From Paenibacillus durus ATCC 35681 (GTDB lineage Bacteria > Bacillota > Bacilli > Paenibacillales > Paenibacillaceae), in the NCBI RefSeq assembly GCF_000993825.1, contig NZ_CP011114.1, forward strand, positions 2,480,001 to 2,544,000: a stretch of DNA of 64,000 nucleotides, read 5' to 3'. This document shows, one piece after another, positions 47,537 to 63,990 of the stretch. The notes under the pieces were generated by a model, which did not search any database, was not told the origin of the DNA, and worked only from the letters and a program-made list of their open reading frames with translations. Position numbers and translations under genes: made by a program. Numbering within the stretch: the stretch's first letter is position 1; each line of letters opens with the position of its first letter.

Positions 47537-48763
47537 CTACTCCAGGATCTCCAGGAAAGCGTCAATTCTGTTCTTCACATGATTGAATGCATAGTTGTTC
47601 CGGTCCATAAAATCCACATTAATGGTTAAGTATTTGATCTTCTTTTCCCCGCATACTTCCCGCATCATCGGGCTTAGCGCCAGCATATTCCGGCAGCCCC
47701 ACGCATTGGAAATGACGATGCCGTCAATCCCATAAGAGTCGCATACCTCGGCCAAATTGACCTCAAACCTCTCCATATGCCAATGATATTCGATGGCCCT
47801 TTGGGCAATGCTGCGGTAAGGATCGTCCGGGTTCAATTTCATCATATTGCTGTTCCAGAGCGGAGCCCAAAAAATGACCTCAACCTCTTTCTCCACATAC
47901 TGCATGATTTCATGTGAACCGTCCGGGGCTTGTCCCGCCCACAGCACCCGCTTCCCGCTTCTTTTGTTCTCCGGCTTTTTGCTCATATCCGACGCTTCCT
48001 GGTACAACGTCTTGCATAATTGCACATTTTCCTGCATTCCGAAAGCGTTCATCCCGAAGATCTCCAGCAGCTCTCTTGAAACACCCGGCAGCCGGTAGTC
48101 CCGTAATAATTCCGCCGTCTGGCAAAAGTACTCTCTGGCTTCGTTGGAATGCTGAACCGTTCGGTCAAGATCCGCTTCGTTAAACTCCATATTCAGCGCC
48201 GCCGCCATGTCCTTCATCAGCCTTCTCTGCTGCCCGGCAAGATAATCCAGCGTATCTTCGTTCAATTCCGTCGGCGTTGAAATGGACAAGAACGGACTGC
48301 GGTAATTTTTGCTGGTGATATTGGCCAGTTTGCTCAAGCAATCACAAGGCTGGTCATTGGCAAGCACGATATCCGGATTCGGATAGCAGTTAGCCATAAT
48401 AACGCCCAACGATCCGCGCAGAAAGGAACAAATATCCCGGGAAACGTTATTCTGCTGCGTCAGATTGATGAACGAATCCGCACACCCATGCTGGGCTAAA
48501 AGAATAGCCATCGATTCGATATTCCACGGAATCATCCCCAGCGCGTACACCAACTCGTTCGGAAACTGCTCGACAACATAGGCAACCTTCGAATCCGGCT
48601 CATAAGCTTTGGTGAGACGGTAAGCATTAAGCAGCGACCGAATCCGGCTTGCCTTCAAGTTCGTGCTGCTGGACAAATCCTGGATACGGCAGGCCTCCAG
48701 CACCTCCGACATATTTCGGTACTGCGACTTGCGGTCGCTGTCCGCAACTTCAAATAGATTCAT
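47537..48763 (-). CDS. 2-hydroxyacyl-CoA dehydratase subunit (HgdB/BcrC-like), second
   Basis: Subunit of the 2-hydroxyacyl-CoA dehydratase/benzoyl-CoA reductase family, which holds a [4Fe-4S] cluster and removes water by a ketyl-radical mechanism. Family features: AYVVEQFPNELVYALGMIPW near residue 60, ANDQPCDCLSKLANI with cluster-type cysteines, a C-terminal Rossmann-like region with VLWAGQAPDGSHEIMQYVE, and GIVISNAWGCRNMLAL. Length 408 aa matches HgdA/HgdB-type subunits. AAAGGAG precedes the ATG. It is the last gene of the NRPS operon and is paired with the similar gene 12 nt upstream; the activator lies two genes further upstream. Substrate unknown, possibly a CoA- or carrier-bound hydroxyacid. 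Confidence 0.82.
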   Translation of the reverse strand: MNLFEVADSDRKSQYRNMSEVLEACRIQDLSSSTNLKASRIRSLLNAYRLTKAYEPDSKVAYVVEQFPNELVYALGMIPWNIESMAILLAQHGCADSFINLTQQNNVSRDICSFLRGSLGVIMANCYPNPDIVLANDQPCDCLSKLANITSKNYRSPFLSISTPTELNEDTLDYLAGQQRRLMKDMAAALNMEFNEADLDRTVQHSNEAREYFCQTAELLRDYRLPGVSRELLEIFGMNAFGMQENVQLCKTLYQEASDMSKKPENKRSGKRVLWAGQAPDGSHEIMQYVEKEVEVIFWAPLWNSNMMKLNPDDPYRSIAQRAIEYHWHMERFEVNLAEVCDSYGIDGIVISNAWGCRNMLALSPMMREVCGEKKIKYLTINVDFMDRNNYAFNHVKNRIDAFLEILE

Positions 48764-48775
48764 CGGCGTCTCCTT

Positions 48776-49885
48776 TCAGAACATCCGGGTTTCAAGAAAG
48801 GTCTGAACCCGCGTCTTAATGCTTTGAATATTGGACATTTGCTGCTCGCCTTCAATAAACAAGACGGAAATACCCTGCTGCTGCAGACGGCTCATCACGT
48901 AGGGATAGTCCATCAGGTAAATATCACAAAATTTCAATGTGAAATAGATCACGGAATCGGCCTTGTAAGTCTTGATAAGGTCCAGCAAATGGTTCAGGCG
49001 GATATCCGAGTCGTACATTCTCGCGCAGGTCGCTTTTTCCAGATAGTAATCGGCGATTGCCGTAAGAGGGTCTTCGTTCTCCTCAATGCGGCCCTCCGCA
49101 TATTTGATGCCGAAGCTCGTATCTTCGCAGACAATCTGCGCTCCGGTCCGTTCGATGATTTCCACCAATTCGGGCTGGTCAAAATAGCTGCCGCACACTA
49201 AGACGCGATGCGGCTTCGTCTGCGGTTCATTGCGCGCTTCTAGATCATCCAGAAATCTTGCCAGTTCCCGGTTAAATTCTTCCTTGCGGCCTGCGGTTGC
49301 GGCCTTCATGATTTGCAGCGCCTCCATGCCCGTCACCGGACTACTCTCCGACTGTCTAAGCTTGTACAACCGCTGGAGCAGTGTCCGCGTTTCGTTGTGA
49401 AGCGAAATGGAACGGCGCAGCGCTTCGTCCGTAATCTGGATCTGATAATGCGATTCCAACGCCGCAACCCACTTCTTAAGCTGGAGTCTGAAATAGGCTT
49501 TGGATTCCGGCGTAATCACCTTTGGAAGCTCCAAAAAATAGGTGAACGGCGGATTTAATTGTTTTTTCCATGCCTCGTACAGTCTTTTGCGCCAATCGCA
49601 TTCATCGACAATGACAATTCCGTCGGCAAAATCGTAAATCCCTTCAATGCCCTCGCTAAGGGAATGAAGCAAGTACGAGCAAAAATTGCTGCAAAGCATC
49701 GAGCCGGCTTCCGAAGTGTTCTGCGCAAACTCTCCTGTAATGCGGAAAGGAACCAGACCCGCCGCATCCAAAATTTCTTCGGGCGTATAGATCGACAGCC
49801 AGCCAATGGCAGGTCTGCCAGATGATTTAACGAATTCGGTTCGGTTCCGGTTCATCAAAGCAAAGATTTCCGCTTGCTCTATCAT
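48776..49885 (-). CDS. 2-hydroxyacyl-CoA dehydratase subunit (HgdA/BcrC-like), first
   Basis: Partner subunit of the preceding entry, 369 aa. It carries RPAIGWLSIYTPEEILDAAGLVPFRI, AGSMLCSNFCSYLLH (cluster cysteines), ADGIVIVDECDWRKRLYEAW, and in the C-terminal half RVLVCGSYFDQPELVEIIE and VIYFTLKFCDIYLMDYP. The start at 49885 has AGGAGG 6 nt upstream; the frame could extend to 50197 but that would overlap the MATE gene and is rejected. The pair is typical of heterodimeric (alpha-beta) dehydratases. It lies downstream of the MATE exporter. Confidence 0.8.
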   Translation of the reverse strand: MIEQAEIFALMNRNRTEFVKSSGRPAIGWLSIYTPEEILDAAGLVPFRITGEFAQNTSEAGSMLCSNFCSYLLHSLSEGIEGIYDFADGIVIVDECDWRKRLYEAWKKQLNPPFTYFLELPKVITPESKAYFRLQLKKWVAALESHYQIQITDEALRRSISLHNETRTLLQRLYKLRQSESSPVTGMEALQIMKAATAGRKEEFNRELARFLDDLEARNEPQTKPHRVLVCGSYFDQPELVEIIERTGAQIVCEDTSFGIKYAEGRIEENEDPLTAIADYYLEKATCARMYDSDIRLNHLLDLIKTYKADSVIYFTLKFCDIYLMDYPYVMSRLQQQGISVLFIEGEQQMSNIQSIKTRVQTFLETRMF

Positions 49886-49920
49886 ATCGCTCCTCCTGTT
49901 TCGCAATATTGGCAGTTCAG

Positions 49921-51306
49921 CTATGCATCCGCAGCTTGCGAATGGATAACGTGAATCCTCTTCCATCTGCCGTTCCTGAACCGGACAGTGACGAGACCCA
50001 GCATCAAGAATGTATAGATCAGCAAATCCCACCATATCCAAATTATCGGGCGGCCATGGACAACACAAATCCAGTAAGGGAAAACAAGGTAAAAAATTGC
50101 CGGCAGCGTCAAATAAACCACCATAATGAAAAAGGTGTCGCCGATCGACTTCAGCACATTGGTAAGGAGAATGACCATCGTATCGAACGCAATCCATACG
50201 GATGTGATCCGGACGAGCGGAAGGGCCGCCTGCTTGATTTGCTCGAACATCCCCCGGTTATCGTGATCCTGGAAGATCGAGATAAGGGCGACGGGCAGCA
50301 CGTTGAACAAAGCAATAATCAAGGCGCTGAAGACCAGGCTCAGCATGATTCCTTTCCTTACCACAGTTGGAATCCGCTCCGCCCGCCCGCCCCCTCTCTC
50401 CTGAGCCGCGATAATGCCAACGGCTGTGCCAAGCCCCAATACGGGAAAGATGGACAGACCTTCAATGGTAAAAACAATGTTGGCGGCAGCCAGGGACACT
50501 TCGCCAATCCCTCCGATAATAATCAGCAGCAAGCTATAATAGCCTGTCTGAACAAAAGCCTGAATTCCTGCGGGAAAACCAAAACGGATCACTTTCAAAA
50601 TAGCTTCCTTATCCGGCCTGAAATTCCGGAGACTGCCGAAGCTGTCCTTGTATTTAGGCAGAAATAGCATAGCCAGATAAATAATGAAGGTGAACAGGCA
50701 GCTCACGATTGTAGCTGTACCCGCTCCGTTGACGCCGCCCATTTCGGGAAAACCGAGATTGCCGAAAATCAGCAGCCAATCGAGTGCAATATTACACAGG
50801 TTACCGGCGATTGCCGCAATCATAATAATTTTGGTGTCGCCTACTCCCCGAAACAGTCCTGAGACGGAGGTTGAGAACAATTGCACGCAGCTTGACAGAA
50901 GGATCAGCTGAAAGAATCTTTTTTCATAGACAAGCAGCTCGCCTGTATGTCCCATCATGTCGAACAATAACGAAGTCCACGGCGAGAGCAGCAGCAGCAC
51001 GGCCGAAAATAGGATACTCAGATAAACCCCTTGCCACATGGAGGATGCGCATCGTTCGTACTTACCCGCTCCGTAATACTGGGAAATGAGCGTAGAGACA
51101 AAGGCGATCATTCCGATGAACAAATTGGCGATAGCCGTTGCGGTGTTTCCTGCGGGAAGCGTGGCCGCAAACTCGACCAGATCATACCTCGCCACAAAAG
51201 CCCGGTCGACAAACACCATAATGTTCATGGAGAACATCGACAGGATGATCGGATAAGTAATGCCGATAATCGAACGATACGTGATATCAGGTGCTAAAGA
51301 TTTCAA
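49921..51306 (-). CDS. MATE-family exporter
   Basis: Twelve-helix multidrug and toxin extrusion transporter, 461 aa. Family blocks include the early ITYPIILSMFSMNIMVFVDRAFVARY, IGMIAFVSTLISQYYGAGKYERC, the second-half FGFPAGIQAFVQTGYYSLLL and LGLGTAVGIIAAQERGGGR. It uses a TTG start with GGAGGAG at 6 nt. It lies within the NRPS operon between the dehydratase activator and the dehydratase subunits, so it probably exports the peptide product or confers self-resistance. Confidence 0.88.
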   Translation of the reverse strand: MKSLAPDITYRSIIGITYPIILSMFSMNIMVFVDRAFVARYDLVEFAATLPAGNTATAIANLFIGMIAFVSTLISQYYGAGKYERCASSMWQGVYLSILFSAVLLLLSPWTSLLFDMMGHTGELLVYEKRFFQLILLSSCVQLFSTSVSGLFRGVGDTKIIMIAAIAGNLCNIALDWLLIFGNLGFPEMGGVNGAGTATIVSCLFTFIIYLAMLFLPKYKDSFGSLRNFRPDKEAILKVIRFGFPAGIQAFVQTGYYSLLLIIIGGIGEVSLAAANIVFTIEGLSIFPVLGLGTAVGIIAAQERGGGRAERIPTVVRKGIMLSLVFSALIIALFNVLPVALISIFQDHDNRGMFEQIKQAALPLVRITSVWIAFDTMVILLTNVLKSIGDTFFIMVVYLTLPAIFYLVFPYWICVVHGRPIIWIWWDLLIYTFLMLGLVTVRFRNGRWKRIHVIHSQAADA

Positions 51307-51333
51307 AGTTTACTCCTCCATTTGCTTGCCAAA

Positions 51334-52095
51334 TCAGGCGATAAAAGCGGCCCCGATCGCGCCCGTAACCTGCGGATAACTGGTCACGTTTACCGGTTGT
51401 TTCAGAATCTCTTCAAGCGCGCTGATCACGCCGACATTTTTGGCAACGCCTCCGCTCATCCCCAGCGGCCCCTGGATACCGACGGATTTGAGCAAAGCGA
51501 CGGCTCTTGTGGCGATAGAATCATGCACGCCCCGAATGATATTGGGAGCCGGTGTTCCGACCGCGACAAGAGAGACCACTTCCGTCTCCGCAAATACCGT
51601 ACACATGCTGCTGATTCGCGCCGAAGTCTCCGCTTCGCGGGAAAGTTCGCCCAGGTCCTCCAGCTTGACACTCAGCGCCCGGGCGATAATATCGAGAAAT
51701 CTTCCGCAGCCGGCCGCGCATTTGTCATTCATCATGAAATTGACGACACCGCCGTTTTCGTCGATCTGAATGGCTTTGCTATCCTGTCCGCCGATATCGA
51801 GTATGGTCCGGATTTCGGGATTCAGAAAATGCATGCCTTTGGCATGGCAGATAATTTCCGAAGCGTTCTTATTGGAAAAAGGCACATTTTCCCGTCCATA
51901 TCCTGTCGTCACTACGACGTCGACGTCTTGCTCCGACAATCCCGCCTTTTCGAGCACATTGCGGTAAGTGATTTCTGCGGAGGCTCTGTTGTTACCCCCT
52001 GTATAAACGACATCATAGGCTATGACATCCTGCTTGTCTTTTAGAATCGCCGACTTCGTGGACAGCGATCCGATATCGATTCCCACTGATATCAT
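51334..52095 (-). CDS. 2-hydroxyacyl-CoA dehydratase activator (HgdC/BcrA-type ATPase)
   Basis: ASKHA-fold ATPase with a [4Fe-4S] cluster at the dimer interface; it injects a high-energy electron into the dehydratase. Seen: nucleotide-binding VGIDIGSLSTKSAIL, DIGGQDSKAIQIDE, the cluster cysteines in CAAGCGRFLD and MCTVFAETE, and GMSGGVAKN. Length 253 aa is normal for HgdC. ATG at 52095 is chosen because AAAGGGG lies 9 nt upstream; an ATG three codons earlier touches it. Its presence with two dehydratase subunits makes a complete system in the NRPS operon. Electrons would come from reduced ferredoxin or flavodoxin. Confidence 0.9.
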   Translation of the reverse strand: MISVGIDIGSLSTKSAILKDKQDVIAYDVVYTGGNNRASAEITYRNVLEKAGLSEQDVDVVVTTGYGRENVPFSNKNASEIICHAKGMHFLNPEIRTILDIGGQDSKAIQIDENGGVVNFMMNDKCAAGCGRFLDIIARALSVKLEDLGELSREAETSARISSMCTVFAETEVVSLVAVGTPAPNIIRGVHDSIATRAVALLKSVGIQGPLGMSGGVAKNVGVISALEEILKQPVNVTSYPQVTGAIGAAFIA

Positions 52096-52163
52096 GGAAG
52101 ACATCCCCTTTGCTTCATATTATTTTGCTCTTTCGTCCATTCGCCCGCGCGGACTGTCCGGCA

Positions 52164-53063
52164 TTACTCTGGCAGCGCAGCGTTTAACTGAACGGCTGAA
52201 GATTCCACATGCTCATGATCAAAGATTGAATAATGGTCCCCCTGTAAAGGATACATCTTTAGCGTCTTGCAATAACGGCCCCATTCCGGAAGCTCCGGAA
52301 TCGGCGAGCCGGTGGCGGCGAACAGATGAACAGGTGACGCCAGATAACGGTCAGGCTCATACTCCGTTCTGGCCGCATGCAGACTCCGAATCGTATTGAA
52401 GGAGCATAACCATTCGCGAAACGGGGCTTTGGAAGCAATCAGCATCGGAACCTGCCACTGATCCGCTACCGTCCGCCGAAAGAGGCCGGAGTCGATGCCG
52501 CCTTCCTCTTCCCGACCTACGAATGTGCGCCATAATTCGTCCAGGCTGCGGCACTGCGCCAGCCGGTTCTTGTCCTCCTGGGACACGGCATACTTCGACA
52601 GCCATTCCAGCTCTGCTTGCAAGGTAACGCTACCCAGCGATTCGGCCGGGTAATATCCCGGCGGAGGCGGATCAAACAGCCCGCAAAAGGCGACTTCGTG
52701 ACCGCCTGCCTCCAGCTGGCTCGCCATCTCAAACGTAATAGTTCCTCCTATTGACCAGCCGGCTAAATAGTAGGGCCCCGATGGCTGTATTTCCGCTATC
52801 CTGCCAATATAATCCCTGGACAATTGCGGAATAGACAATGTCTGAGGAACACCATCGTTAAATTCATTGCACAGGATTCCGTATACGGAGAAGTCGGACC
52901 GAATTCGGGCGCACAGCTTGAAATAGCCTTCGATTCCTCCGGTTCCGTCATGGATGAGAAACAACGTTCTCTTGGGACTCACTCCCCGTCCGAGCAAAAT
53001 CGGCCGGGCTCTGGCCGGGTAAGGCCAGGAGGAGTACACGCTGCCGTTAGTGGGCGCGTTCAT
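52164..53063 (-). CDS. Free-standing NRPS thioesterase
   Basis: Alpha/beta-hydrolase of the NRPS/PKS thioesterase group. The nucleophile motif is GWSIGG (Ser at about residue 124), followed by a catalytic Asp in the LFDPPPPGYY region and the C-terminal His in LQGDHYSIF. The N-terminus TLFLIHDGTGGIEGYFKLCARI is typical of type-I TE domains (as in EntF or SrfA-C). It lies 30 nt after the NRPS gene and is not fused, so it may release the product in trans or act as an editing thioesterase. AAGGAGGG precedes the ATG. Confidence 0.87.
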   Translation of the reverse strand: MNAPTNGSVYSSWPYPARARPILLGRGVSPKRTLFLIHDGTGGIEGYFKLCARIRSDFSVYGILCNEFNDGVPQTLSIPQLSRDYIGRIAEIQPSGPYYLAGWSIGGTITFEMASQLEAGGHEVAFCGLFDPPPPGYYPAESLGSVTLQAELEWLSKYAVSQEDKNRLAQCRSLDELWRTFVGREEEGGIDSGLFRRTVADQWQVPMLIASKAPFREWLCSFNTIRSLHAARTEYEPDRYLASPVHLFAATGSPIPELPEWGRYCKTLKMYPLQGDHYSIFDHEHVESSAVQLNAALPE

Positions 53064-53092: not shown

Positions 53093-56000
53093 TTACCTGT
53101 TCAAGAGCAGATCGTCTCCCAGCAGCTGCTCCACCTTCGCTGAAAGCTCGCCCACCGTAGCGGATTCCATAACATCCATAATGGAAAGCTCGACATGAAA
53201 CAATTTTTCGACTTCCAGCGCCACATTGATGAACAGCAGAGAGTTTCCGCCTAGAAGATATAGATCATCGTTCATATCCACTTCTTCACGATGGAACATT
53301 TTTTTAATCAGCTCCGCCATTTTCCGTTCCGTATCCGACCGGGGCGCTTGCTTCTCCGCGTGAAGCAACACCGGAACTTCTTCCGGATCGGGCAGCGCCG
53401 CCAAGTCAACCTTGCCGTTTGCCTTCAAGACCAGGGAGTCAAGCGGAATGAACAAGGAGGGAATCATGTAAGACGGCAAATGCCCCTCCAGAAAAGTACG
53501 CCACGTCTGGGCGCTGCCTTTTCCCTCCTCTTGCAAAACAAGGTAAGCGACGATACGTTTCTCGCCTTCTCGCGTCTCATTGACAACGACCACCGCTTCC
53601 CGGATATCGGGATGGCTGATCAATACCCGCTCGATTTCCCCAGGCTCGATCCGGTAGCCGCGTATTTTCACCTGCTGGTCGATCCTGCCTAAGAACTCAA
53701 TGCTCCCATCCGGCAGCCATCTTGCCAGGTCTCCCGATCGGTATAAACGTTCGTTCGGAAGAAACGAAGCGGATCTAAATTTCTCCGCATTCAGATCGGG
53801 CCGGTTCATATATCCGCGGGCCAGACCGTCGCCGCCTATGCACAGCTCGCCCGCAACGCCCGGCGGCAGCAGATTCCCGTAACCATCCATAATGTATACC
53901 GTCGTGTTCGCAATCGGTTTGCCGATCGGAACCCGGCTTCCCGTCTCCTCGCCGACCCTGTGGAAGGTAGTAAACGTTGTATTTTCCGTAGGCCCGTACA
54001 TATTAAGCAGAGTTAATCCCGGACAGGCTTCCCGAACCCGCTCCGCAGGCTTCGCCGGCAGTACATCACCGCCTACCAGTAGGGCAGTCAGGGGCGTGAA
54101 CAGATCCGGCTTTTGTTCCGACAACTGGTGGAATAAGGGAGTCGTCAGCCACAGCAGATCAATTTGATACTCCGCGATAAAAGCCCCCAGCTTATCGGCT
54201 CTCAGCAAAACATCTTCCTCCGCTACATACAGCGTTAGACCATTCAATAAGGCGCCCCATATTTCGAAAGTGGTCGCATCAAACGATGGCGAGCCGGTCA
54301 GCAGGATTCTCATCCCTGCATGAAGCTCTATATAGCCCCCGTTCTTCACCAGCCGGACGACATTTCGATGTTCCACCATCACCCCCTTCGGATGTCCGGT
54401 TGAACCGGAGGTGTACATGATGTACGCCAGAGTGCTTGGCTCGCTGGTGTTCACCAGGTTAGCGTTATCGGACGCACCGCCTAGAGCCGCTCCATCCTGC
54501 TGCACTTCGACTTTGACAACTTCAACACCCGCATACCCAGCTTCTATCCAAGCATTACCTTGTCCCGGTATTCCTGCCTGGACAAGCACAAGCGCCGCTC
54601 CGCTGTCCCGCAGCATAAATTCGATACGCTCCGGCGGATAAGAAGGGTCGATGGGCAAATAAGCGCCGCCTGCCTTCAGAATGGCAAGTATGCCGAGTAT
54701 CATTTGGGGAGAACGCCCCGCGAGAATGGCTACGACGGACTCGGGGCCGATTCCCCGGTCTTGCAGCACCCGGGCCAGCCGGTTGGACCTCGCATTCAGT
54801 TCGGCGTAGGTCCAAGCTGTGCCTGCTCCACTTAGCGCGATCGCGTCCGGGGTGCGGCTTGCCTGTTCCTCGAACAGCTCATGGATGCATTTATCCGACG
54901 GATAGGCGGCGCGGGTATCGTTGAATTCCTTAACCAGCTTCTCCCGCTCGGCCGCGTCCGTCAGCCGCAGCTCCTTCACCCGCGCATCCGGTCTATCCGC
55001 AATATCCTCCAGCAGATGGCCGTACATCTTCAGCAGCCGGCGCACCGTCTCCGGCCGGAACAGGTCGCTGTTGTACTCCGCCCATACCGCCGTCTCTCCT
55101 TCCCGCTGCCGGATATCAAACAGCAGGTCCGCCTGCGTCGCGTCGCTTTCCGCTTCCAGCCACGTCTCCTTCAGGTCCGCAAATCCGCCTTCTTCTTTCG
55201 CTTCCGTTACCATGTTGAACATCACCCGGAAGAGCGGATTCCGGCTGTGCTGCCGGTCCGGGTTCAGCTTGCGCACCAGTCGCTCGAACGGATAATCCTG
55301 CATATAATACGCCTCGTCCACTTTTGCGTGTACGGTCTTCATCAGGTCCTCCCAGGCCAATTCCCCGTCGACCTCGGCCCGGATCGCCACCGTGTTCACG
55401 AAGAAGCCTGCCGCCCGGCTCAGCTCCTGGCTGTAATGCCGGCCGGCGAACACCGTCCCGACGACCACATCGTCCTGGCGGCTGCATTTGTGCAGCAGCA
55501 CATAATAAGCCGACAGCAGCGCCGAGAACAAGATGACCCGCTTGTTCAGGCACTGGAACTTCAGACGGCCGATCAATTCGTCTGACAGCTCCAGCTTCTC
55601 GAGCCCGCCCCGAAAGCTGATTCCCGGCGGCGGCGGAAAGTCGGCCGGCAGGTCCAGCACGGGCAGTTCGCCCTTGAACTGCTCAAGCCAGTACGCTTCC
55701 TGCTCCACTGTCGCCTCTTCCCCGAACGTCTCCTTTTGCCACAGCGCATAGTCGCCATAGGCGATGCCAGGCTGGGGCAGCTCACCCGCCTCCGCGCCGA
55801 TCCGGCGGTTATACAGCGTCTTCAGGTCCCGCCACAGAAGCTGGAACGTCGTCGCATCGGAGACGATATGATGCAGCTTCAGGACCAGGAGGGCCTCATC
55901 CGCTCCGTACTGCACCAGAATCGCCTGAAAGAGCGGGTCGCCTTCCCGGATAGCGATCGGCTCCCGGCATTCCTTGGAGAACCATTCCGCCAAAGCCTGC

Positions 56001-56326
56001 TCCCGGCTGCCTGGGTCCCCTTGGGACAGGTCGACCAGCCTGAACTGCTCCGGCGAGAAGGGGCCGAACGATTGGACGGGGGGCTGGGCCAGTTCAATTG
56101 TCGTCCGAAGCGCGGCATGGCGTCCGGCCAGTTCCTCCACGGCCCCCCGCATCGCTTCCGCGTTCAGCCTGCCCGTCAGCCGCTTGGCTGAAATCAAGTT
56201 CCACAGGGCACCACCCGGCGCCAACTGGTCCAGATACAGAACGCGTTCCTGCTGATAGGACAGCGGGTAATCCCGCCGTTCTTCCCTGTGCTCAATCGCC
56301 GGATATCTCCTTATCGAAGTTGTCAA
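53093..56326 (-). CDS. NRPS module C-A-T (downstream module)
   Basis: One complete elongation module, about 1077 aa. Condensation domain (residues about 10-440) has HHIVSDA for the HHxxxDG motif. Adenylation domain (about 475-960): YTSGSTGHPKGV, MYGPTE, GELCIGG and the NGK lysine. Reading the ten pocket positions gives D-A-F-W-L-G-M-T-F-K, closest to the valine-type code (DAFWIGGTFK) but with a bulky Met, so a small or medium aliphatic residue is likely. Carrier domain near the C-terminus has LGGNSL with the phosphopantetheine Ser. No epimerase or TE domain. TTG at 56326 is 8 nt from GGGGAG; a GTG three codons earlier is too close. The condensation region is almost identical to that of the next gene upstream. 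Confidence 0.92.
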   Translation of the reverse strand: MTTSIRRYPAIEHREERRDYPLSYQQERVLYLDQLAPGGALWNLISAKRLTGRLNAEAMRGAVEELAGRHAALRTTIELAQPPVQSFGPFSPEQFRLVDLSQGDPGSREQALAEWFSKECREPIAIREGDPLFQAILVQYGADEALLVLKLHHIVSDATTFQLLWRDLKTLYNRRIGAEAGELPQPGIAYGDYALWQKETFGEEATVEQEAYWLEQFKGELPVLDLPADFPPPPGISFRGGLEKLELSDELIGRLKFQCLNKRVILFSALLSAYYVLLHKCSRQDDVVVGTVFAGRHYSQELSRAAGFFVNTVAIRAEVDGELAWEDLMKTVHAKVDEAYYMQDYPFERLVRKLNPDRQHSRNPLFRVMFNMVTEAKEEGGFADLKETWLEAESDATQADLLFDIRQREGETAVWAEYNSDLFRPETVRRLLKMYGHLLEDIADRPDARVKELRLTDAAEREKLVKEFNDTRAAYPSDKCIHELFEEQASRTPDAIALSGAGTAWTYAELNARSNRLARVLQDRGIGPESVVAILAGRSPQMILGILAILKAGGAYLPIDPSYPPERIEFMLRDSGAALVLVQAGIPGQGNAWIEAGYAGVEVVKVEVQQDGAALGGASDNANLVNTSEPSTLAYIMYTSGSTGHPKGVMVEHRNVVRLVKNGGYIELHAGMRILLTGSPSFDATTFEIWGALLNGLTLYVAEEDVLLRADKLGAFIAEYQIDLLWLTTPLFHQLSEQKPDLFTPLTALLVGGDVLPAKPAERVREACPGLTLLNMYGPTENTTFTTFHRVGEETGSRVPIGKPIANTTVYIMDGYGNLLPPGVAGELCIGGDGLARGYMNRPDLNAEKFRSASFLPNERLYRSGDLARWLPDGSIEFLGRIDQQVKIRGYRIEPGEIERVLISHPDIREAVVVVNETREGEKRIVAYLVLQEEGKGSAQTWRTFLEGHLPSYMIPSLFIPLDSLVLKANGKVDLAALPDPEEVPVLLHAEKQAPRSDTERKMAELIKKMFHREEVDMNDDLYLLGGNSLLFINVALEVEKLFHVELSIMDVMESATVGELSAKVEQLLGDDLLLNR
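54846..56322 (-). repeat. Condensation-domain duplication, copy 1
   Basis: This stretch, covering the whole C domain up to the start of the A domain, is near-identical and colinear (constant offset of 3262 nt) with copy 2. I count roughly 27 amino-acid differences over about 490 residues. Identity ends abruptly at both sides. Confidence 0.9.
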
Positions 56327-56384
56327 TGATTTCACTCCCCGTTATTTGAATAAGGTGAAGAGCTTGCCGAGCGCCTCTTACGGA

Positions 56385-59300
56385 TCAAGAAGCGCCGACG
56401 GGCAGCAGGGATTCAACCGTTTTTGCCAATTTCGCCAGGACGGGCAGATCGATGAAATCCATGAGCGACAGACTGATGCCGAATGTCTGCTCAATTTCTG
56501 TAATAAAACGGATCGTTAACAACGAATTGCCGCCTAAATCGAAGAAATTGTCATTCGGATTAATGCCGGAAATGTTGAGAATGGATTCGGTTATTCCAAT
56601 TAGCTTCCGTTCCACTTCGCTTATCGGCTGGTCAGATTCATTCTTCGAATCATGATTAAGGCCGGGAGCTGGCAATGCGGAGCGGTCCACCTTCCCGCTC
56701 TTGTTCAGAGGCATAGTCTCCAGCTGGATAAAGGCGGAAGGTATCATATAGGAAGGCAGCCACTCGGCCAGATGCCGTTTCCATTCCTCGTCCGGTATCT
56801 CGGTGTCCGGATGCACGACACAGTAAGCGACCAGCATCTGACGGCCAGGCTCATCCTCTCTGGCGATGACAGCCGCCGACAAGATCGACGGATGCGAAGC
56901 CAGCGTTTCTTCGATCTCGCCAGGCTCAATCCGGAATCCGCGAATTTTGACTTGCTGATCAATCCGGCCAATATAGTCCAGTGTGCCGTTATCCCGTCTG
57001 CGGACCAAATCTCCGGTGCGGTACAATCTTTCTCCCGGGCGGTAAGGGTTCGGAGCGAACTTCTCGGCTGTAAGTTCGGGAAGATTCGCATATCCGCGCG
57101 CGAGGCTCGGTCCCGAAAGGCATAGTTCCCCGATCAAGCCTATCGGCAAAAGCTGGCTGTAACGGTCCAGAACATACGCCTGCACATTCGCCAGCGGAGC
57201 TCCGATCGGAACCTGCTCTTCCGGCGTGTCCTGCCGGAGCCGGTGGCAAGTTGCATAAATGGCCGTTTCCGTCGGACCGTACACGTTGACCAATTCCGTG
57301 CCGCTTACTTGTTCATGGAAGGATCTGACGACATGGGGCTTAAGCGCTTCTCCGGCGGCAAACGCATACCGCAAGCTGGCAAGCTCCCGGATTCCTCTCG
57401 CCTTAAGATCTTCCAAGAATGCTTGAAGGAATGACGGCGAGAAATTGGCATGGGTAACCCCGTGCTCCGTGATCGCCTTCACGATTTTGACCGGTTCCTT
57501 TTCCGCTCCCGGTTCCAAGATTACCAGCTTGCCGCCCTCAAAGAACCAGCCGAACAGCTCGGAGACGGAAACGTCGAAAGCAAAGTGAGTCTTGAGCAGA
57601 TGGGCGTCGTTTGAATGAACCGGGAAGGTCTGCTGCATATAAAACAATGTATTCAGCACGGAGCCGTGTTCGACCATAACGCCTTTCGGTTTGCCCGTTG
57701 AGCCCGAGGTGTACATGATATATATCAGATCTTCCGTATGGCTGACGGGCTCCAGATGATCTGCCGAACTGGCGGAAGCCAGCGCTTCCTGAATGCTGAC
57801 TACTGGAACCGGGCCGCTATCCGCTCCGTCCGGTGCAGGATGGACGAGCAGCAAGCGGGCATTGCTGTCCTCCAGCATATAGCGTCTCCGCTCCGCGGAA
57901 ATCTGCGGGTCGACGGGCACATAGGCGGCTCCCGCTTTGAGAACGGCCAGAATGGAAATCACCATCTCGAAGGAGCGCTCGCTCATAATGCCGACGACGC
58001 TTCCCGCCGCAATATCCTTGTCACGGAGATAGCGGGCCAGCCGGTTGGCTTGGCGGTTCAGCTCCTCATAGGTCATCGTATCCTCCAAGAAGACGAGAGC
58101 CGTCCGGTCCGGGGTGCGGCTTGCCTGTTCCTCAAACAGCTCATGGATGCATTTGTTGGGCGGATAGGCGGCGCGGGTATCGTTGAATTCCTTAACCAGC
58201 TTCTCCCGCTCGGCCGCGTCGGTCGGCCGCAGCTCCTTCACCCGCGCGTCCGGTCTTTCAGCGATGTCCTCCAGCAGATTAGCGTACATCTTCAGCAGCC
58301 GGCGCACCGTCTCCGGCCGGAACCGGTCGCTGTTGTACTCCGCCCATACCGCCGTCTCTCCTTCCCGCTGCCGGATATCAAACAGCAGGTCCGCCTGCGT
58401 CGCGTCGGATTCTGCCTCCTGCCACGTCTCCTTCAGGTCGGCAAATCCGCCTTCTTCTTTCGCTTCCGTTACCATGTTGAACATCGCCCGGAAGAGCGGA
58501 TTCCGGTTGTGCTGCCGGTCCGGATTCAGCTTGCGCACCAGCCGCTCGAACGGGTAATCCTGCATATAGTACGCCTCGTCCACTTTCCCGTGGACCGTCT
58601 TCACCAGGTCCTCCCAGGCCAATTCCCCGTCTACCTCGGCCCGGATCGCCACCGTGTTCACGAAGAAGCCTGCCGCCCGGCTCAGCTCCTGGCTGTAATG
58701 CCGGCCGGCGAACACCGTCCCGACGACCACATCGTCCTGGCGGCTGCATTTGTGCAGCAGCACGTAATAAGCCGACAGCAGCGCCGAGAACAAGATAACC
58801 CGCTTGTTCAGGCATTGCGCCTTCAGGCGGCCGATTAATTCGTCCGGCAGCTCCAGCTTCTCAAACCCGCCCCGAAAGCTGATTCCCGGCGGCGGCGAAA
58901 AGTCGGCCGGCAGGTCCAGCACGGGCAGCTCGCCCTTGAACTGCTCCAGCCAGTACGCTTCCTGCTCCAAGGTCCGCTCTTCCTCAAACGTCTCTTTTTG
59001 CCACAGGGCATAATCGCCGTAGGCGATGCCGAGCTGGGGCAGCTCACCCGCCTCCGCGCCAGTCCGGCGGTTATACAGCGTCTTCAGATCCCGCCACAGA
59101 AGCTGGAACGTCGTCGCATCGGAGACGATATGATGCAGCTTCAGGACCAGGAGGGCCTCATCCGCTCCGTACTGCACCAGAATCGCCTGAAAGAGCGGGT
59201 CGCCTTCCCGGATGGCGATCGGCTCCCGGCACTCCTTGGAGAACCATTCCGCCAAAGCCTGCTCCCGGCTGCCTGGGTCCCCTTGCGACAGGTCGACCAG

Positions 59301-59588
59301 CCTGAACTGCTCCGGCGAGAAGGGGCCGAACGATTGGACGGGGGGCTGGGCCAGTTCAATTGTCGTCCGAAGCGCGGCGTGACGCCCGGCCAATTCCTCC
59401 ACGGCCGCCCGCATCGCTTCCGCGTTCAGCCTGCCCGTCAGCCGCTTGGCCGATACTTTGTTCCACAGGGCGCCATCCGGCGTCAGCTGGTCCAGATACA
59501 GAATGCGTTCCTGCTGATAGGACAGCGGGTAATCCCGCCGTTCCTCCCTGTGTTCAATCGCTGGATACTTTCTTTTACCTTGTCTCAT
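56385..59588 (-). CDS. NRPS module C-A-T (upstream module)
   Basis: One elongation module of 1067 aa. The C domain (about 10-440) again has HHIVSDA. A domain (about 480-965): YTSGSTGKPKGV, VYGPTETAIY, GELCLSG and NKSGK. The pocket reads D-V-S-N-F-A-V-I-Y-K, which I cannot match to a known amino acid; it retains the Asp that binds the alpha-amino group. The T domain (about 1000-1060) has DLGGNSLLTIR. ATG at 59588 overlaps the stop of the acyl-CoA dehydrogenase gene (ATGA), with GGAGGG 8 nt upstream, so translation is coupled. The two modules are separate polypeptides that presumably act in series, with docking not visible in sequence. Confidence 0.92.
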   Translation of the reverse strand: MRQGKRKYPAIEHREERRDYPLSYQQERILYLDQLTPDGALWNKVSAKRLTGRLNAEAMRAAVEELAGRHAALRTTIELAQPPVQSFGPFSPEQFRLVDLSQGDPGSREQALAEWFSKECREPIAIREGDPLFQAILVQYGADEALLVLKLHHIVSDATTFQLLWRDLKTLYNRRTGAEAGELPQLGIAYGDYALWQKETFEEERTLEQEAYWLEQFKGELPVLDLPADFSPPPGISFRGGFEKLELPDELIGRLKAQCLNKRVILFSALLSAYYVLLHKCSRQDDVVVGTVFAGRHYSQELSRAAGFFVNTVAIRAEVDGELAWEDLVKTVHGKVDEAYYMQDYPFERLVRKLNPDRQHNRNPLFRAMFNMVTEAKEEGGFADLKETWQEAESDATQADLLFDIRQREGETAVWAEYNSDRFRPETVRRLLKMYANLLEDIAERPDARVKELRPTDAAEREKLVKEFNDTRAAYPPNKCIHELFEEQASRTPDRTALVFLEDTMTYEELNRQANRLARYLRDKDIAAGSVVGIMSERSFEMVISILAVLKAGAAYVPVDPQISAERRRYMLEDSNARLLLVHPAPDGADSGPVPVVSIQEALASASSADHLEPVSHTEDLIYIMYTSGSTGKPKGVMVEHGSVLNTLFYMQQTFPVHSNDAHLLKTHFAFDVSVSELFGWFFEGGKLVILEPGAEKEPVKIVKAITEHGVTHANFSPSFLQAFLEDLKARGIRELASLRYAFAAGEALKPHVVRSFHEQVSGTELVNVYGPTETAIYATCHRLRQDTPEEQVPIGAPLANVQAYVLDRYSQLLPIGLIGELCLSGPSLARGYANLPELTAEKFAPNPYRPGERLYRTGDLVRRRDNGTLDYIGRIDQQVKIRGFRIEPGEIEETLASHPSILSAAVIAREDEPGRQMLVAYCVVHPDTEIPDEEWKRHLAEWLPSYMIPSAFIQLETMPLNKSGKVDRSALPAPGLNHDSKNESDQPISEVERKLIGITESILNISGINPNDNFFDLGGNSLLTIRFITEIEQTFGISLSLMDFIDLPVLAKLAKTVESLLPVGAS
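58108..59584 (-). repeat. Condensation-domain duplication, copy 2
   Basis: Near-identical partner of copy 1 (54846-56322) at a constant offset of 3262 nt. The adjoining A and T domains of the two genes are unlike each other, so the similarity is limited to the C domain and the following linker. Confidence 0.9.
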
Positions 59589-60775
59589 AGCTTCTGCCCT
59601 CCTACCGGATTAAATGAAGACTTTGCTCTGCGCTTGATCAGCTCATCGGCAATGATTAGCCGCTGAATTTCCGAAGTCCCGTCACCGATTTCCGTCAGCT
59701 TGGCGTCCCGAAACAACCGTTCCAGAGGCAATTCACGCGAATAGCCGTAACCCCCGAAAATCTGAACGGCATCCTTAGTGATTCGCGTCGCGGTTTCCGA
59801 AGCGAACAGCTTAGCCTCCGACGCTTCCTTGGCGAAGGGCTTGCCGCTATCCTTCAGGTGCACGGCTCTTTCCAGCAGCAGCCGGGACGCGTTCAGATTC
59901 ACTTCCATATCCGCAAGCATATTTTTAATCGTCTGAAACTGGTATAGGTATTGATCGAACTGCTTGCGCTGCTTCACATATTGCAGACAATGCCGCTGCG
60001 CTTCCTCGGCGATTCCGACGGCGATTGCAGCCATGCCCATGCGGGCGCTTGCCAGCGTTTCATGCAGAACTTCCAAGCCAAAGTTCTTGCGTCCAACGAC
60101 ATTTTCCTTCGGAACGATCACATCCTGGAAGATGAGTTCACCCATATCGGCGCCTCTCATCCCGAGCTTGCGTTCCTTCTTGGAGGAAGTTGAGATGCCT
60201 TCCATACCTTTTTCCAGAATAAAAACGGTAAGACCGAGCATTTTTTTATCCGGTGCCGTGCTCGCCGCCACAAGATAAATATCCGCTACATTCGCATTGG
60301 TGATAAAGGTCTTAGACCCGTTCAACACGTAATGGTCGTCGTGCTCCACGGCCCTTGTCCGCATGGAAGCCATATCCGAGCCGCTGTCCGGTTCGGTCAG
60401 TGCAAAAGCGCCGATCGCTTCTCCCGTAGCCAGCCGGCTGAGGTGTGCGGCCTTTTGCAAGGGGGACCCGAAGGCATGAATCGGATGGCCGGTCAGGCAG
60501 GTATGGGCCACAACCGTCATCGCCGTTGACGCGCAAGCGGCGGCAAGCTGACGGACGAAGGAGATGTAAGAGGCAAAACTCTGGTCCAATCCTTCGTATT
60601 CTTCGGGATAAGGTATCCCAAGCAGGCCGAGCCTTCCCATTTCTTTCATATTGCTCATTGGAAACGTCTCCTGCTCGTCGATCTCCCCCGCCGCCGGCTC
60701 CACATAGGTCTTGATAAAGTTCGACGCCGTTTCTTCCATAATCTGCTGCATTTCGTTAACCGTCATTGCTTTCAC
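59585..60775 (-). CDS. Acyl-CoA dehydrogenase family flavoprotein
   Basis: FAD enzyme of 396 aa. N-terminal helical domain, then AFALTEPDSGSDMASMRT and KTFITNANVADIYLVAA (FAD/substrate contacts), and C-terminal GGYGYSRELPLERLFRDAKLTEIGDGTSEIQRLIIADEL. The usual catalytic Glu of the IYEGT block is Asp here (IGDGT), so the base may differ. In this operon, upstream of the NRPS modules, it may oxidise an aminoacyl or acyl unit on a carrier protein or CoA. It overlaps both neighbours (GTG/TGA at the AsnB stop; ATGA with the NRPS start). The ATG at 60766 with GGAG upstream is an alternative start. Confidence 0.88.
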   Translation of the reverse strand: MKAMTVNEMQQIMEETASNFIKTYVEPAAGEIDEQETFPMSNMKEMGRLGLLGIPYPEEYEGLDQSFASYISFVRQLAAACASTAMTVVAHTCLTGHPIHAFGSPLQKAAHLSRLATGEAIGAFALTEPDSGSDMASMRTRAVEHDDHYVLNGSKTFITNANVADIYLVAASTAPDKKMLGLTVFILEKGMEGISTSSKKERKLGMRGADMGELIFQDVIVPKENVVGRKNFGLEVLHETLASARMGMAAIAVGIAEEAQRHCLQYVKQRKQFDQYLYQFQTIKNMLADMEVNLNASRLLLERAVHLKDSGKPFAKEASEAKLFASETATRITKDAVQIFGGYGYSRELPLERLFRDAKLTEIGDGTSEIQRLIIADELIKRRAKSSFNPVGGQKL

Positions 60776-62544
60776 ACTCCAAACGTTTTATGCCATAATT
60801 CGAGAGCGATCAAGGCATGCGATGTGCGGAAGACGGCCAAATTGTCCAGCCCCGCGTAATCGCCCCGTTTATTCAAAAAATCGATCGTTTTTCTCTTATC
60901 GAAATAGGCTGAAATTTTGGAATTGCCGGAACGGATCAGGTCGGAGGCCAGCTGCCTCTGAGCGATAACCGATTTGGGATCAACCGGGAAGGGAAAAGGC
61001 TTCTTCTTCCGGTCGGTTATGGCGCTGGGAAGAATAGACTTTCCGATTTCTTTCAGAAACCATTTTTCGCTGCCATCCTTCAACTTGTATTGCGACGGAA
61101 GGTTTATCACGCGCTCCACGATACGGTAATCCAGAAAAGGCACCCGAACTTCCACACCCGAGGCCATGCTCGTCTTGTCCTGCCGTTCCAGCATCTCAAG
61201 CAAATAATATTTCATGAATAAATATAAAATACGGTTGAGCGGGTCCCGGGACGGAAACTGTCTTAACGAATCCCGGAGCGATGACTCCACCTTGTCCCGG
61301 AATCCGGTCCGCTCCCCTACGGCCTGGTCAAGCAGTCCGGATACTTCCCGGTAATAGGGAGCCCACGGGAACTGGGAGACCTGCCCGGAAGGATCGCCGT
61401 TCAGGAAGAAGAAGTATCCGCCGAACAGTTCGTCGGCCCCTTCACCCGAAATGACGACCGACACCTCTTTTTTAATTTCCCGATACAGCAAATACAAGGA
61501 CGGCGTCGTCAATTCAACGGGCTTTTCCATATGCCAGGTGACCTTCTCCATCATGTCCCTGTAATCTTCCGTCCGGAAGATAAATTCCCTATGATCCGTC
61601 CCAAGGTGCTCTGCCATGAGTCTCGCATAGGCCGTGTCGGAATTAGAGGCGCTCACGTCTCGGTTGTCCCCGTATTCCATCGAGAACGTGCGCAATCGGG
61701 AATCAGACCCGCCGCTTACCGCGAGCGCCGTCAGCAGACTTGAATCCAGCCCCCCGCTGAGCAGAGAGCCGAACGGAATATCGCTCATGCGTCTTTTCCA
61801 CACGGAGTCGGTGAGCAGCGACAGCGTCTCATCCTTCCAGGCATCAAGCGACCTTTCTCCCCCTGCGTCCGCCTTCATACTCCAGTACCGGGCCGCTGTC
61901 AGCTTCGTTCCCTGCACGCTGAGCGTATAACCCGGGGGCAGAGAGTGAATATTTTTGAACATGGTTTGCCCTTCGAGCAGAACGGTGCAGAACAAGTACT
62001 CGGGAACCGCGCCTTCCCGCACCTCCGCCGTAACCGAGGGATGGGACAGAATCGCCTTGATTTCGGAAGCGAAAATAAAACTATGTCCGACCATCGTATA
62101 ATACAATGGCTTTACTCCAAGCCGGTCCCTTGCCATGAACAGCGTTTCGTTTCGTTCGTCCCACAGCGCAAAGGAGAACATGCCGTTAAATTTAAGCACG
62201 CAGTCCGGGCCGTATTCCTCATAGGCGTGAACAACAACCTCCGTATCGCAGTTGGTGCGAAAGGTATGGCCTTGCTGGATCAGCTCGCGCCGCAGCTCCG
62301 GAAAATTAAATATCTCGCCGTTATAGGTCAGCCAGATGCTCCCGTCTTCATTCGTCATCGGCTGCCCGCCGTGCGCCAGGTCGATAATCGACAGCCGCGT
62401 ATGGCCGAGACCGATTCGATTGCCGATATGCACCCCTTCCCCATCCGGTCCCCGGTGGCGAAGCAGACCAATCATGTTCCGCAGCTCCGCTTCGAGGACT
62501 TGGTGTTCCGCGTCCGTGTTAACAATGCCGCATATTCCGCACAT
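60772..62544 (-). CDS. Asparagine synthase-like glutamine amidotransferase
   Basis: Class-II glutamine amidotransferase fused to an ATP-dependent synthetase, 590 aa. The Met is followed by the nucleophile Cys2 (MCGICGIVNTD), then the glutaminase motifs LRHRGPDGEG and LTYNGEIFNFPELR. The synthetase half has the PP-loop SGGLDSSLL and SGEGADELFGGY. It could make an amide from a carboxylic acid, most simply asparagine, but in this operon it may amidate a beta-amino acid such as the beta-glutamate predicted from the aminomutase next door, or a peptide carboxylate. GGGGAGGAAG precedes the ATG; the aminomutase stop is 28 nt upstream. Confidence 0.9.
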   Translation of the reverse strand: MCGICGIVNTDAEHQVLEAELRNMIGLLRHRGPDGEGVHIGNRIGLGHTRLSIIDLAHGGQPMTNEDGSIWLTYNGEIFNFPELRRELIQQGHTFRTNCDTEVVVHAYEEYGPDCVLKFNGMFSFALWDERNETLFMARDRLGVKPLYYTMVGHSFIFASEIKAILSHPSVTAEVREGAVPEYLFCTVLLEGQTMFKNIHSLPPGYTLSVQGTKLTAARYWSMKADAGGERSLDAWKDETLSLLTDSVWKRRMSDIPFGSLLSGGLDSSLLTALAVSGGSDSRLRTFSMEYGDNRDVSASNSDTAYARLMAEHLGTDHREFIFRTEDYRDMMEKVTWHMEKPVELTTPSLYLLYREIKKEVSVVISGEGADELFGGYFFFLNGDPSGQVSQFPWAPYYREVSGLLDQAVGERTGFRDKVESSLRDSLRQFPSRDPLNRILYLFMKYYLLEMLERQDKTSMASGVEVRVPFLDYRIVERVINLPSQYKLKDGSEKWFLKEIGKSILPSAITDRKKKPFPFPVDPKSVIAQRQLASDLIRSGNSKISAYFDKRKTIDFLNKRGDYAGLDNLAVFRTSHALIALELWHKTFGV

Positions 62545-62571
62545 ACTTCCTCCCCGCGCCTCGACAGGCGA

Positions 62572-63990
62572 TTAGAAATAATACCAGATGGTCTTGTAAT
62601 CCCGGATATCCTCGCCCAGCGCTTCAAGCTTTGCCAAATAATTGCCGATAGGCTCATCCTTGAACAAAAAGGTGTTAACCGGAGCCATGTACTTCTCCCA
62701 TGGATAAAATTCATAGATTCGGCTCCCGTCCTTGTGGATCATAACGATATCGTGATCCTGCCAGGCGTTCAGATCGTTTTTGCCCAGTGTAGGCACGTTG
62801 AATACCGGCTTGTCCGTCCTTACCGTCCCAGGGAGCAGGCGCGCCTCTTCCTTCTGCTCTTGAAGCAGCCGGGCAACGGGAACTTTAAAATTCGCCGTCT
62901 CTTCCTTGCCTTTCAGGTTAAATAAGTAATAGGGAGTGACGCCGATAGACCGAAGCTGCTCCCTTAGAAAGCTCGTCTCAAACTTCCGGCTGTTGTAAAG
63001 CGTGAATACCTGCTGATTGTAGATGTCGATTCCGGCTCTCTTCAGTTTAAGCGCGGCCTCCGCCGTTTCTTCGGATATCTCGTAGGCATGCTGAAAATGA
63101 GTCATCATCGTTATCGTTTTAAAGGGCGGCTTATGATAGGCGCATAGAATGCGCAGCAGCTCCTCGTCAAATCGCATGGGCATCGTCACCAGCGTTCGGG
63201 TCCCGATCCGGATTCGCCGGATATGCTCGATCTCGTACAAATTTCGGATGACATATTCCAGCATTTCGTTGTTAACGGTAAGCGGGTCGCCGCCCGTAAT
63301 CAGCACTTCGCTGATCGAGGGATTGGACCGGAACCAGTCGAATGCTTTCTCCAAGTCCTGAAAAGCAGGCTGCGCCTCGTCTTCTTCCTCACCCTCAAGC
63401 TCCCAATTCCGCTGACAGTACACGCAGATTTGGGGACACCACAAATAGGGCTTGACGATCGCGATCATCGCGTACCTTCGGGTTACGGATTGTTCAGGAG
63501 ACGTATCCCGCTCATGCATGAAATCCAGCGATTCCCTTCCGCCGGAACAAGCCTTGAGATAAGCATCAAGGTAAATCCGGTTCGGTATGACTTGCGCCCG
63601 CAAGCTGCGGTCCCGGCCGGACAAGGACGATTCCATGTCCATCAAGGACAAATAATAGGGCGTTATCCCGAACGGCAGCCGGTGCTGCGTTGTTACCCGA
63701 ATCATCTCCTGCTCTTCATCCGTCAAGGAGATAATTTCGGCAATATCCTCCAAGCGTTGAAACCGGTGCCGCAGATGCCACTTGTAATCGGACCAATCGC
63801 TTTCTTCCGCACCCAAATACCGCAGAATTCGCGCGCGCATCGCGTCTCTGCCCTGTTTCACCGCCGGGTGCAGCCCTGTCATATATTCGTTTTTGCGGAT
63901 AAACTCCTCATATTGATTCGCCTTCCCGTCCAGATGGACCGACCTCGCCTCCGCCGCTTCCCGGCCTTCCAGATGGACGAATTCGGGCAC
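62572..63990 (-). CDS. KamA-family radical SAM 2,3-aminomutase, glutamate type (5' end may be off-window)
   Basis: Radical SAM, PLP-dependent aminomutase. The cluster motif is CPQICVYC (CX3CX2C, about residue 199), with VLITGGDPLTVNN and the C-terminal PLP region NVPTLGK. In lysine 2,3-aminomutase two Asp residues (293 and 330 in the Clostridium enzyme) bind the lysine side chain; here the aligned residues are Lys (in YYLFNLKGKEE) and Asn (in PVFNVPTLG). Lys and Asn at these positions are the published signature of glutamate 2,3-aminomutase, so beta-glutamate is the predicted product. The frame is open to the window edge; the GTG at 63990 is only one possible start. First seen gene of the NRPS operon. 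Confidence 0.88.
   Translation of the reverse strand: MPEFVHLEGREAAEARSVHLDGKANQYEEFIRKNEYMTGLHPAVKQGRDAMRARILRYLGAEESDWSDYKWHLRHRFQRLEDIAEIISLTDEEQEMIRVTTQHRLPFGITPYYLSLMDMESSLSGRDRSLRAQVIPNRIYLDAYLKACSGGRESLDFMHERDTSPEQSVTRRYAMIAIVKPYLWCPQICVYCQRNWELEGEEEDEAQPAFQDLEKAFDWFRSNPSISEVLITGGDPLTVNNEMLEYVIRNLYEIEHIRRIRIGTRTLVTMPMRFDEELLRILCAYHKPPFKTITMMTHFQHAYEISEETAEAALKLKRAGIDIYNQQVFTLYNSRKFETSFLREQLRSIGVTPYYLFNLKGKEETANFKVPVARLLQEQKEEARLLPGTVRTDKPVFNVPTLGKNDLNAWQDHDIVMIHKDGSRIYEFYPWEKYMAPVNTFLFKDEPIGNYLAKLEALGEDIRDYKTIWYYF

Follow-up and report, generated by a model that had tools for sequence, protein, structure and literature searches.

What does an operon make that sets a nonribosomal peptide synthetase (NRPS) assembly line beside an aminomutase and a 2-hydroxyacyl-CoA dehydratase system of the oxygen-sensitive kind used in fermentation? 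The question is raised by the right-hand end of the window, by which we mean the whole 64,000-nucleotide stretch of Paenibacillus durus ATCC 35681 DNA analysed here (G000:C1:2480001-2544000 of a 5.58-Mb genome). The operon comprises 15 minus-strand genes and spans 21.7 kb, from window position 47537 to extended coordinate 69273, where an extended coordinate is the position in L010, the stretch read past the right edge, plus 61000. It is a run of large, domain-complete open reading frames (ORFs) far beyond chance, and its gene order is conserved in other phyla. The encoded NRPS pathway has a tailoring set that is conserved over several phyla and, as a preliminary description of the window had supposed, is described in none of the papers listed by open-access literature searches for the combination (these searches did not extend to MIBiG). 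We put at about even the chance that the operon directs the synthesis of a small nonribosomal peptide by the stepwise route given below. The genes, domains and limits that can be read from the sequence are these:

47469..47504, minus strand: intrinsic terminator closing the operon (16-pair stem, T-rich tail)
47537..48763, minus strand: HGDa, alpha-type 2-hydroxyacyl-CoA dehydratase subunit, 408 amino acids (PF06050, 3e-51)
48776..49885, minus strand (longest ORF to 50197): HGDb, beta-type subunit, 369 amino acids from the likely start (PF06050, 1.4e-90)
49921..51306, minus strand: MATE-family exporter (PF01554; TIGR00797 over cut-off)
51334..52104, minus strand: ATP-dependent dehydratase activase of the HadI/HgdC type (TIGR00241, 266.6 bits, over cut-off)
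52164..53063, minus strand: stand-alone thioesterase for release (PF00975, 4.8e-22; GWSIG from residue 102)
53093..56335, minus strand: NRPS2, a condensation-adenylation-thiolation (C-A-T) module (Pfam domains; code DAFWLGMTFK)
56385..59588, minus strand: NRPS1, a C-A-T module (Pfam domains; code DVSNFAVIYK)
59585..60775, minus strand: acyl-CoA-dehydrogenase-like redox enzyme, ACAD (AcrC model, 385.5 bits, under the cut-off of 640)
60772..62544, minus strand: AsnB-type amidotransferase (TIGR01536, 503 bits against a cut-off of 267.1)
62572..64425 extended (L010 1572-3425), minus strand: KamA-type aminomutase, 617 amino acids (TIGR00238 over cut-off)
64422-65426 extended, minus strand, right of the window: AANH/PP-loop enzyme
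65423-66925 extended, minus strand, right of the window: AMP-ligase
66922-67170 extended, minus strand, right of the window: stand-alone carrier protein, 82 amino acids
67207-68463 extended, minus strand, right of the window: EtfA fused to an N-terminal two-cluster ferredoxin domain
68467-69273 extended, minus strand, right of the window: EtfB

Gaps between the 15 genes range from -4 to 59 bases; those of the five genes added on the right (EtfB, EtfA, carrier protein, AMP-ligase and AANH) are at most 36 bases, with three 4-base overlaps. All ten genes of the preliminary description are present on the minus strand, domain searches place them in the families it had named, and its expectation that the operon runs past the right edge was borne out, as the remainder of the aminomutase and five more genes lie there. 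Its ten genes are thus two thirds of the operon, and the aminomutase, given as 472 amino acids long, has 617 and starts at 64425, position 63990 being an internal GTG. The terminator after the last gene is also where it had been placed, and its stem is by far the longest among 23 terminator-like matches in 47200-63999. We place the operon start in the 355-base intergenic region before ymcA; as a promoter scan upstream of the operon gave 4 sites against 3.1 in shuffles, this gap alone was used to position the transcription start. Regulation by a known RNA element was rejected, none exceeding the gathering threshold in L010 1-9200 or in window 28000-64000. The longest ORF of HGDb (48776-50197) and the MATE gene share 277 bases; alignments of HGDb with its near relatives start at residues 97-115, and six relatives have 371-384 amino acids (two longer ORFs have 430 and 437), which together point to a start at 49885.

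The gene set is not a one-off: it recurs in distant bacteria. From a scan of species genomes with an AANH alignment, the best 80 of 164 loci were kept, and nine NRPS operons, all sharing the gene set, were mapped end to end or nearly so. Five are from Paenibacillus (the window, a P. durus relative, P. tyrfis, Paenibacillus sp. FSL H8-0048 and P. tepidiphilus) and four from elsewhere (a Spirochaetales and a Rhodospirillales metagenome-assembled genome, Bradyrhizobium jicamae and Rhodopseudomonas rhenobacensis). The common order is carrier, ligase, AANH, (KamA), AsnB, ACAD, NRPS, (thioesterase), HGDb, HGDa, activase, (MATE), from which the window and P. durus deviate in that the activase and MATE genes precede the dehydratase pair. 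This pair is found in all nine operons and the activase in eight, the ninth being that of the spirochaete, whose contig ends soon after; HGDb and ACAD of R. rhenobacensis, masked by overlapping frames in the ORF maps, are counted as present. A KamA-type protein occurs in all nine, of the 617-residue type in six and of another type in the three alphaproteobacteria. All five Paenibacillus operons have EtfAB, thioesterase and MATE, for which the stretches covered of the other four yielded no match at 1e-8. Beside the KamA-like gene of two of the three alphaproteobacteria lies a class III aminotransferase gene (one recognised by Pfam, the other 61% identical), with none in the B. jicamae stretches covered. 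On contigs of 20 kb or more outside the own genome, at least 18 of 33 with a dehydratase-alpha match also carry an AANH match, and at least 5 of the 12 contigs with the nearest KamA matches are shared with AANH matches; both counts are lower bounds, the tables giving one contig per cluster and contigs being matched between lists by size. A gene for an S-adenosylmethionine (SAM)-type methyltransferase lies beside the P. tyrfis (L103 2064-2798) and spirochaete (L105 1317-2045) operons and is not among the window's 15.

Two further loci, L026 (Zixibacterium) and L027 (a desulfobacterium), hold the carrier-ligase-AANH-AsnB-ACAD core in polysaccharide-type surroundings, with no NRPS, KamA or dehydratase within the 21 kb covered. 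AAC(3)-like acyltransferase genes follow these cores (L026 14085-14960; L027 14165-15049), as though a carrier-bound group were transferred onto a sugar. In the other 64 loci (L034-L097) AANH is 35-42% identical, a related ligase occurs in 56 and a related AsnB in 29; relatives of ACAD, KamA and the dehydratase gave no match at 1e-8 there, many of these contigs being short. The two annotated loci of the 64 both encode exosortases and cluster a related AsnB, acyl carrier protein (ACP), AMP-ligase and AANH (L061 6263-12716; L053 3941-14929). In this the operon resembles exosortase-linked exopolysaccharide loci, with their TIGR03108 amidotransferase and TIGR03098 ligase, but the 64 showed no operon of NRPS modules and no relative of the aminomutase, dehydrogenase or dehydratase.

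In this genome the operon is a 22.3-kb insert. The NUDIX gene on its left and miaB on its right lie 537-1866 bases apart in all 24 other same-genus genomes among the 40 relatives searched, against 22,882 here, and three empty sites align on the left with window 47306-47337 and on the right with extended 69630-69633, where ymcA ends. The P. durus relative has the operon between the same neighbours (98.8% identity for NUDIX, 96.8% for miaB and 95.3% for ymcA), which were not found in the operon stretches covered from P. tyrfis and FSL H8-0048. Of 100 genomes from the genus, 5 (the own genome among them) have a KamA of the 617-residue type, and among named relatives AANH is closest to those of P. 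zanthoxyli (98%) and P. durus (96%). Carriage of the dehydratase on plasmids was rejected, the sole plasmid match being distant (20.8% identity).

Domain searches agree with the proposed NRPS of two C-A-T modules and a thioesterase: both C-A-T proteins are complete over the Pfam cut-offs and carry HHxxxDA and LGGNSL motifs. The code of module 2 presumably specifies valine. That of module 1 is uncommon, and its type recurs with small changes across the eight non-spirochaete operons (DVSNFALIYK, DVANFALIYK, DVANFVMIYK, DVANLALIYK, DVTDFALIYK); the residue that we propose for it is beta-glutamate. The spirochaete module has DLYNLSLIWK, which we take to be a cysteine code, and the last module of FSL H8-0048 and of P. 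tepidiphilus again has a code of the module 1 type (DVTNFAIIYK). The first 1.7 kb of NRPS1 and NRPS2 (53093-59588) are 89% identical in DNA. Their condensation domains share 94% identity and their adenylation domains 43%, a contrast that points to gene conversion or recent duplication. In P. durus the two condensation domains are 96.5% identical; as identity between the two genomes is 92-94%, these domains may be homogenised in each genome. The genome has two other condensation-domain loci (G000:C1:2930162-2939472 and 1020620-1025146).

Where would beta-glutamate come from? The residues of KamA support it as the product, in line with what had been suggested before. KamA has the CxxxCxxC motif and the pyridoxal phosphate (PLP) lysine, and Lys and Asn replace Asp293 and Asp330 of lysine 2,3-aminomutase (2a5h). 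K505, which aligns with Asp293, is invariant together with N543, K549 and the radical SAM cysteines in the best 120 of 4717 KamA matches. We take Asp293 and Asp330 to hold the lysine side chain, K549 to be the PLP lysine, and Lys and Asn to stand in their places in glutamate 2,3-aminomutase, for which Ruzicka and Frey reportedly gave a Lys332/Asn369 rule. The KamA-like proteins of the alphaproteobacteria (437-495 amino acids, adjoining the operon, 44-62% identical to one another; 124.3 bits against TIGR00238, under its cut-off) have Arg at the Asp293 position in three of three. Two distinct KamA types thus have a basic residue there, which we count in favour of beta-glutamate. Other observations weigh against it. 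KamA belongs to a longer branch (617 amino acids against the 404 positions of TIGR04368) and, at 231 bits, does not reach the cut-off of 650 of this glutamate 2,3-aminomutase equivalog. According to a review (PMC1224877), early nuclear magnetic resonance (NMR) work excluded an aminomutase as the source of beta-glutamate in methanogens, and a hydroxyglutaryl-CoA/glutaconyl-CoA route is preferred. With KamA sharing 49% identity with a protein of Methanotorris igneus, this tells against taking every member of the branch as a beta-glutamate producer; the methanogen route also suggests a possible dehydratase route to beta-glutamate. Natural-product biosynthesis offers a precedent for a KamA-type enzyme in IdnL4 of the incednine pathway (PMC11284099). 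This radical SAM glutamate 2,3-aminomutase has been proposed to supply an assembly line based on carrier proteins, although no activity was observed in vitro. Incednine itself, a polyketide macrolactam, has its beta-glutamate decarboxylated, whereas the operon here has no decarboxylase.

The core genes point to what precedes this residue. Ser34 of the carrier is kept in all 33 loci with a match, and the ligase pocket (with one Ser/Thr change) and an ACAD Asp are kept in core loci irrespective of an NRPS, which argues for one shared carrier-bound building block. AANH has the zinc tetracysteine, PP-loop and fold of the WbuX/WbpG family, and scores 152.2 bits against the N-acetyl sugar amidotransferase model TIGR03573, under the cut-off of 203.2. 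A serious though less probable option is that, like the sugar amidotransferases WbpG and WbuX, it uses ammonia to make an amidine (or nitrile) from an AsnB-made amide. However, its cysteines C177, C180 and C298 (CxxC...C), invariant in 65 of 65, resemble the iron-sulfur site of CtaC in spacing, whereas the passages of the 8wex paper covered here name only the zinc motif. By printed residue numbers, D97, C177, C180 and C298 of AANH correspond to D77, C154, C157 and C284 of CtaC, described in PMC6772006 as a thioamide synthetase acting on carrier-bound chains. We prefer thioamide formation by AANH. The closthioamide pathway of the same paper is like the operon in its AANH enzyme with a TtcA/TtuA-type iron-sulfur motif, stand-alone carriers, acyl ligase and beta-amino acid units, but is NRPS-independent, and the parts covered name no AsnB, aminomutase, acyl-CoA dehydrogenase or dehydratase.

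AsnB has an intact glutaminase Cys and synthetase loop, with MCGICG and SGGLDSS in core loci. Its set occurs in L026 and L027 without an NRPS or a nearby aminomutase gene, so AsnB more likely amidates a carrier-bound acyl group, and the beta-glutamate amide considered for the peptide in the preliminary description found no support, AsnB being tied to the ACP-ligase-AANH set. Against this stands the L026 genome, which does carry a long-type aminomutase elsewhere (48%) and weakens the argument; the L027 genome has distant KamA matches only. It is improbable, in our estimate, that AsnB uses beta-glutamate as its substrate, whether to form beta-glutamine or to close a beta-lactam, a reading that the preliminary description had put forward in part. 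The genes for AsnB and a beta-amino-acid enzyme do stand side by side, and beta-lactam and carbapenam synthetases are AsnB relatives, but the matches to 1jgt and 1q15 are weak and that to glutamine-hydrolysing Asn synthase is far stronger. Given these matches and the intact Cys, beta-lactam formation was rejected as first choice. AsnB-type amidotransferases also act on malonyl-ACP in glutarimide polyketide starters, and dapdiamide is fumaramoyl-Dap-Val; amidation of a carboxylic acid towards an amide starter, and in dapdiamide the terminal Val, make these a loose analogy for the amidated carrier-bound acyl group that we favour.

ACAD is closest to C. difficile 5ol2 (3.2e-104), which we take to be a bifurcating complex, and has Asp where C. 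difficile butyryl-CoA dehydrogenase has its catalytic Glu (IGDG in 18 rows, 16 of them distinct, two loci being entered twice). In leucine and lactate fermentation HadBC-HadI works with AcdB-EtfAB, and acryloyl-CoA reductase belongs to the same systems. The operon is like these systems, whose structures 3o3m-3o3o were matched, in its dehydratase pair, activase, acyl-CoA dehydrogenase and EtfAB. Could these form one reductive dehydroxylation line here too, from a 2-hydroxyacyl through an enoyl to a saturated acyl thioester, with Etf bifurcation giving reduced ferredoxin? The proteins occur together in all five Paenibacillus operons, ACAD and EtfA score best and EtfB second best against the acryloyl-CoA reductase models, and the closeness to 5ol2 fits as well. 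Yet the AcrA, AcrB and AcrC scores (240.5, 141.5 and 385.5 bits) are all under cut-off, ACAD belongs to a core that in L026 and L027 occurs without the dehydratase, four of the nine operons showed no EtfAB relatives, and the Asp holds in all 16 distinct rows. We consider such a line unlikely and favour separate roles for ACAD-Etf and the dehydratase. Unlike the fermentation dehydratases, the operon has NRPS genes and no CoA-transferase or hydroxyacid dehydrogenase, and its subunits fall far under the Had equivalog cut-offs (45.9 and 161.1 bits for NF052455 and NF052456, against 750 and 700 for these HadBC models).

The dehydratase pair with its activase was recognised correctly at the outset: both subunits belong to PF06050 and have three cluster cysteines, assigned from alignment with HadBC/BzdN/MbdON, and they are joined by a BcrAD/BadFG activase whose motifs are kept in seven aligned relatives. 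The cysteines of HGDb are kept in nine aligned rows and in R. rhenobacensis, and C112, C140 and C357 of HGDa are invariant in 48 of 48 aligned. HGDa matches solved proteins weakly by sequence, but its predicted structure (predicted local distance difference test score 91) is nearest to HadB 3o3o_A, with a template-modelling (TM) score of 0.82, followed by BzdO (0.80) and MbdO (0.77). This fold match and the kept cysteines place HGDa firmly within the dehydratase/benzoyl-CoA reductase superfamily. A word-based search, which misses distant relatives, gave 89 relatives, of which 85 share at least 38% identity and 4 no more than 30%, a split that suggests a subfamily of its own.

Sequence alone does not separate dehydration from reduction by HGDa/HGDb. 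The pair could instead be an ATP-dependent low-potential reductase, benzoyl-CoA-reductase-like, acting on a conjugated or thioamide-type thioester-bound group. The nearest solved protein to HGDb is BzdN (6e-45, against 1.9e-35 for HadC), MbdO is among the weak HGDa sequence matches, and domain searches found no gene in the operon for making a 2-hydroxyacyl substrate. On the other hand, the HGDa fold ranks HadB first, by a small margin, and dehydration and reduction use the same cluster type. We regard a reductase as doubtful and retain dehydration. A 2-oxoacid:ferredoxin oxidoreductase (fused alpha-beta and fused gamma-delta; window 40458-43803, minus strand), encoded a few kilobases downstream of the operon, is a possible source of low-potential electrons.

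From these genes we infer the order of steps, the residue of module 1, the product and the action of AsnB, AANH and the dehydratase on carrier-bound groups. KamA would turn L-glutamate into beta-glutamate by shifting its amino group. The stand-alone AMP-ligase would load a small acid onto the 82-residue carrier protein, AsnB would convert its distal carboxylate to an amide, and AANH, with its predicted iron-sulfur site, would activate the amide carbonyl with ATP, exchanging oxygen most likely for sulfur (thioamide) and less likely for NH (amidine). ACAD and Etf may change the alpha-beta oxidation state of the carrier-bound acyl group, which NRPS1 would take up and extend by its own residue, after which NRPS2 would add valine and the thioesterase release the product for export by MATE. 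The activase would inject one electron into HGDa/HGDb, low-potential electrons plausibly arriving through the ferredoxin-fused EtfA, and the pair would remove an alpha-hydroxyl from a thioester-bound intermediate through a ketyl radical. We propose a product of the type [amide- or thioamide-type acyl]-beta-Glu-Val, with the dehydration on a thioester-bound intermediate.

More tentatively, and with the odds somewhat against it, a ketyl-radical dehydratase may act on NRPS carrier-bound intermediates, and the starter module (carrier, ligase, iron-sulfur AANH and AsnB) may be common to exosortase-linked glycans and peptides, so that one unrecognised acyl modification would connect polymers of the cell surface with secreted metabolites across many phyla. 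If so, low-potential radical dehydration, to our knowledge so far a fermentation reaction, would enter peptide assembly lines. The dehydratase pair with the AANH-AsnB-carrier set would give a handle for finding an uncharacterised peptide family in aerobes and anaerobes, and for the exosortase-associated ligase and amidotransferase genes, which NCBIfam names by position only, a secreted small product would make the function testable.

Beyond the operon, the window also encodes a NifD/NifK-like pair on the minus strand (35462-38252 and 38365-39684; Oxidored_nitro, with no NCBIfam equivalog cut-off reached), which is adjoined by an O-acetylhomoserine sulfhydrylase-like gene; together these genes are reminiscent of methylthio-alkane reductase loci.

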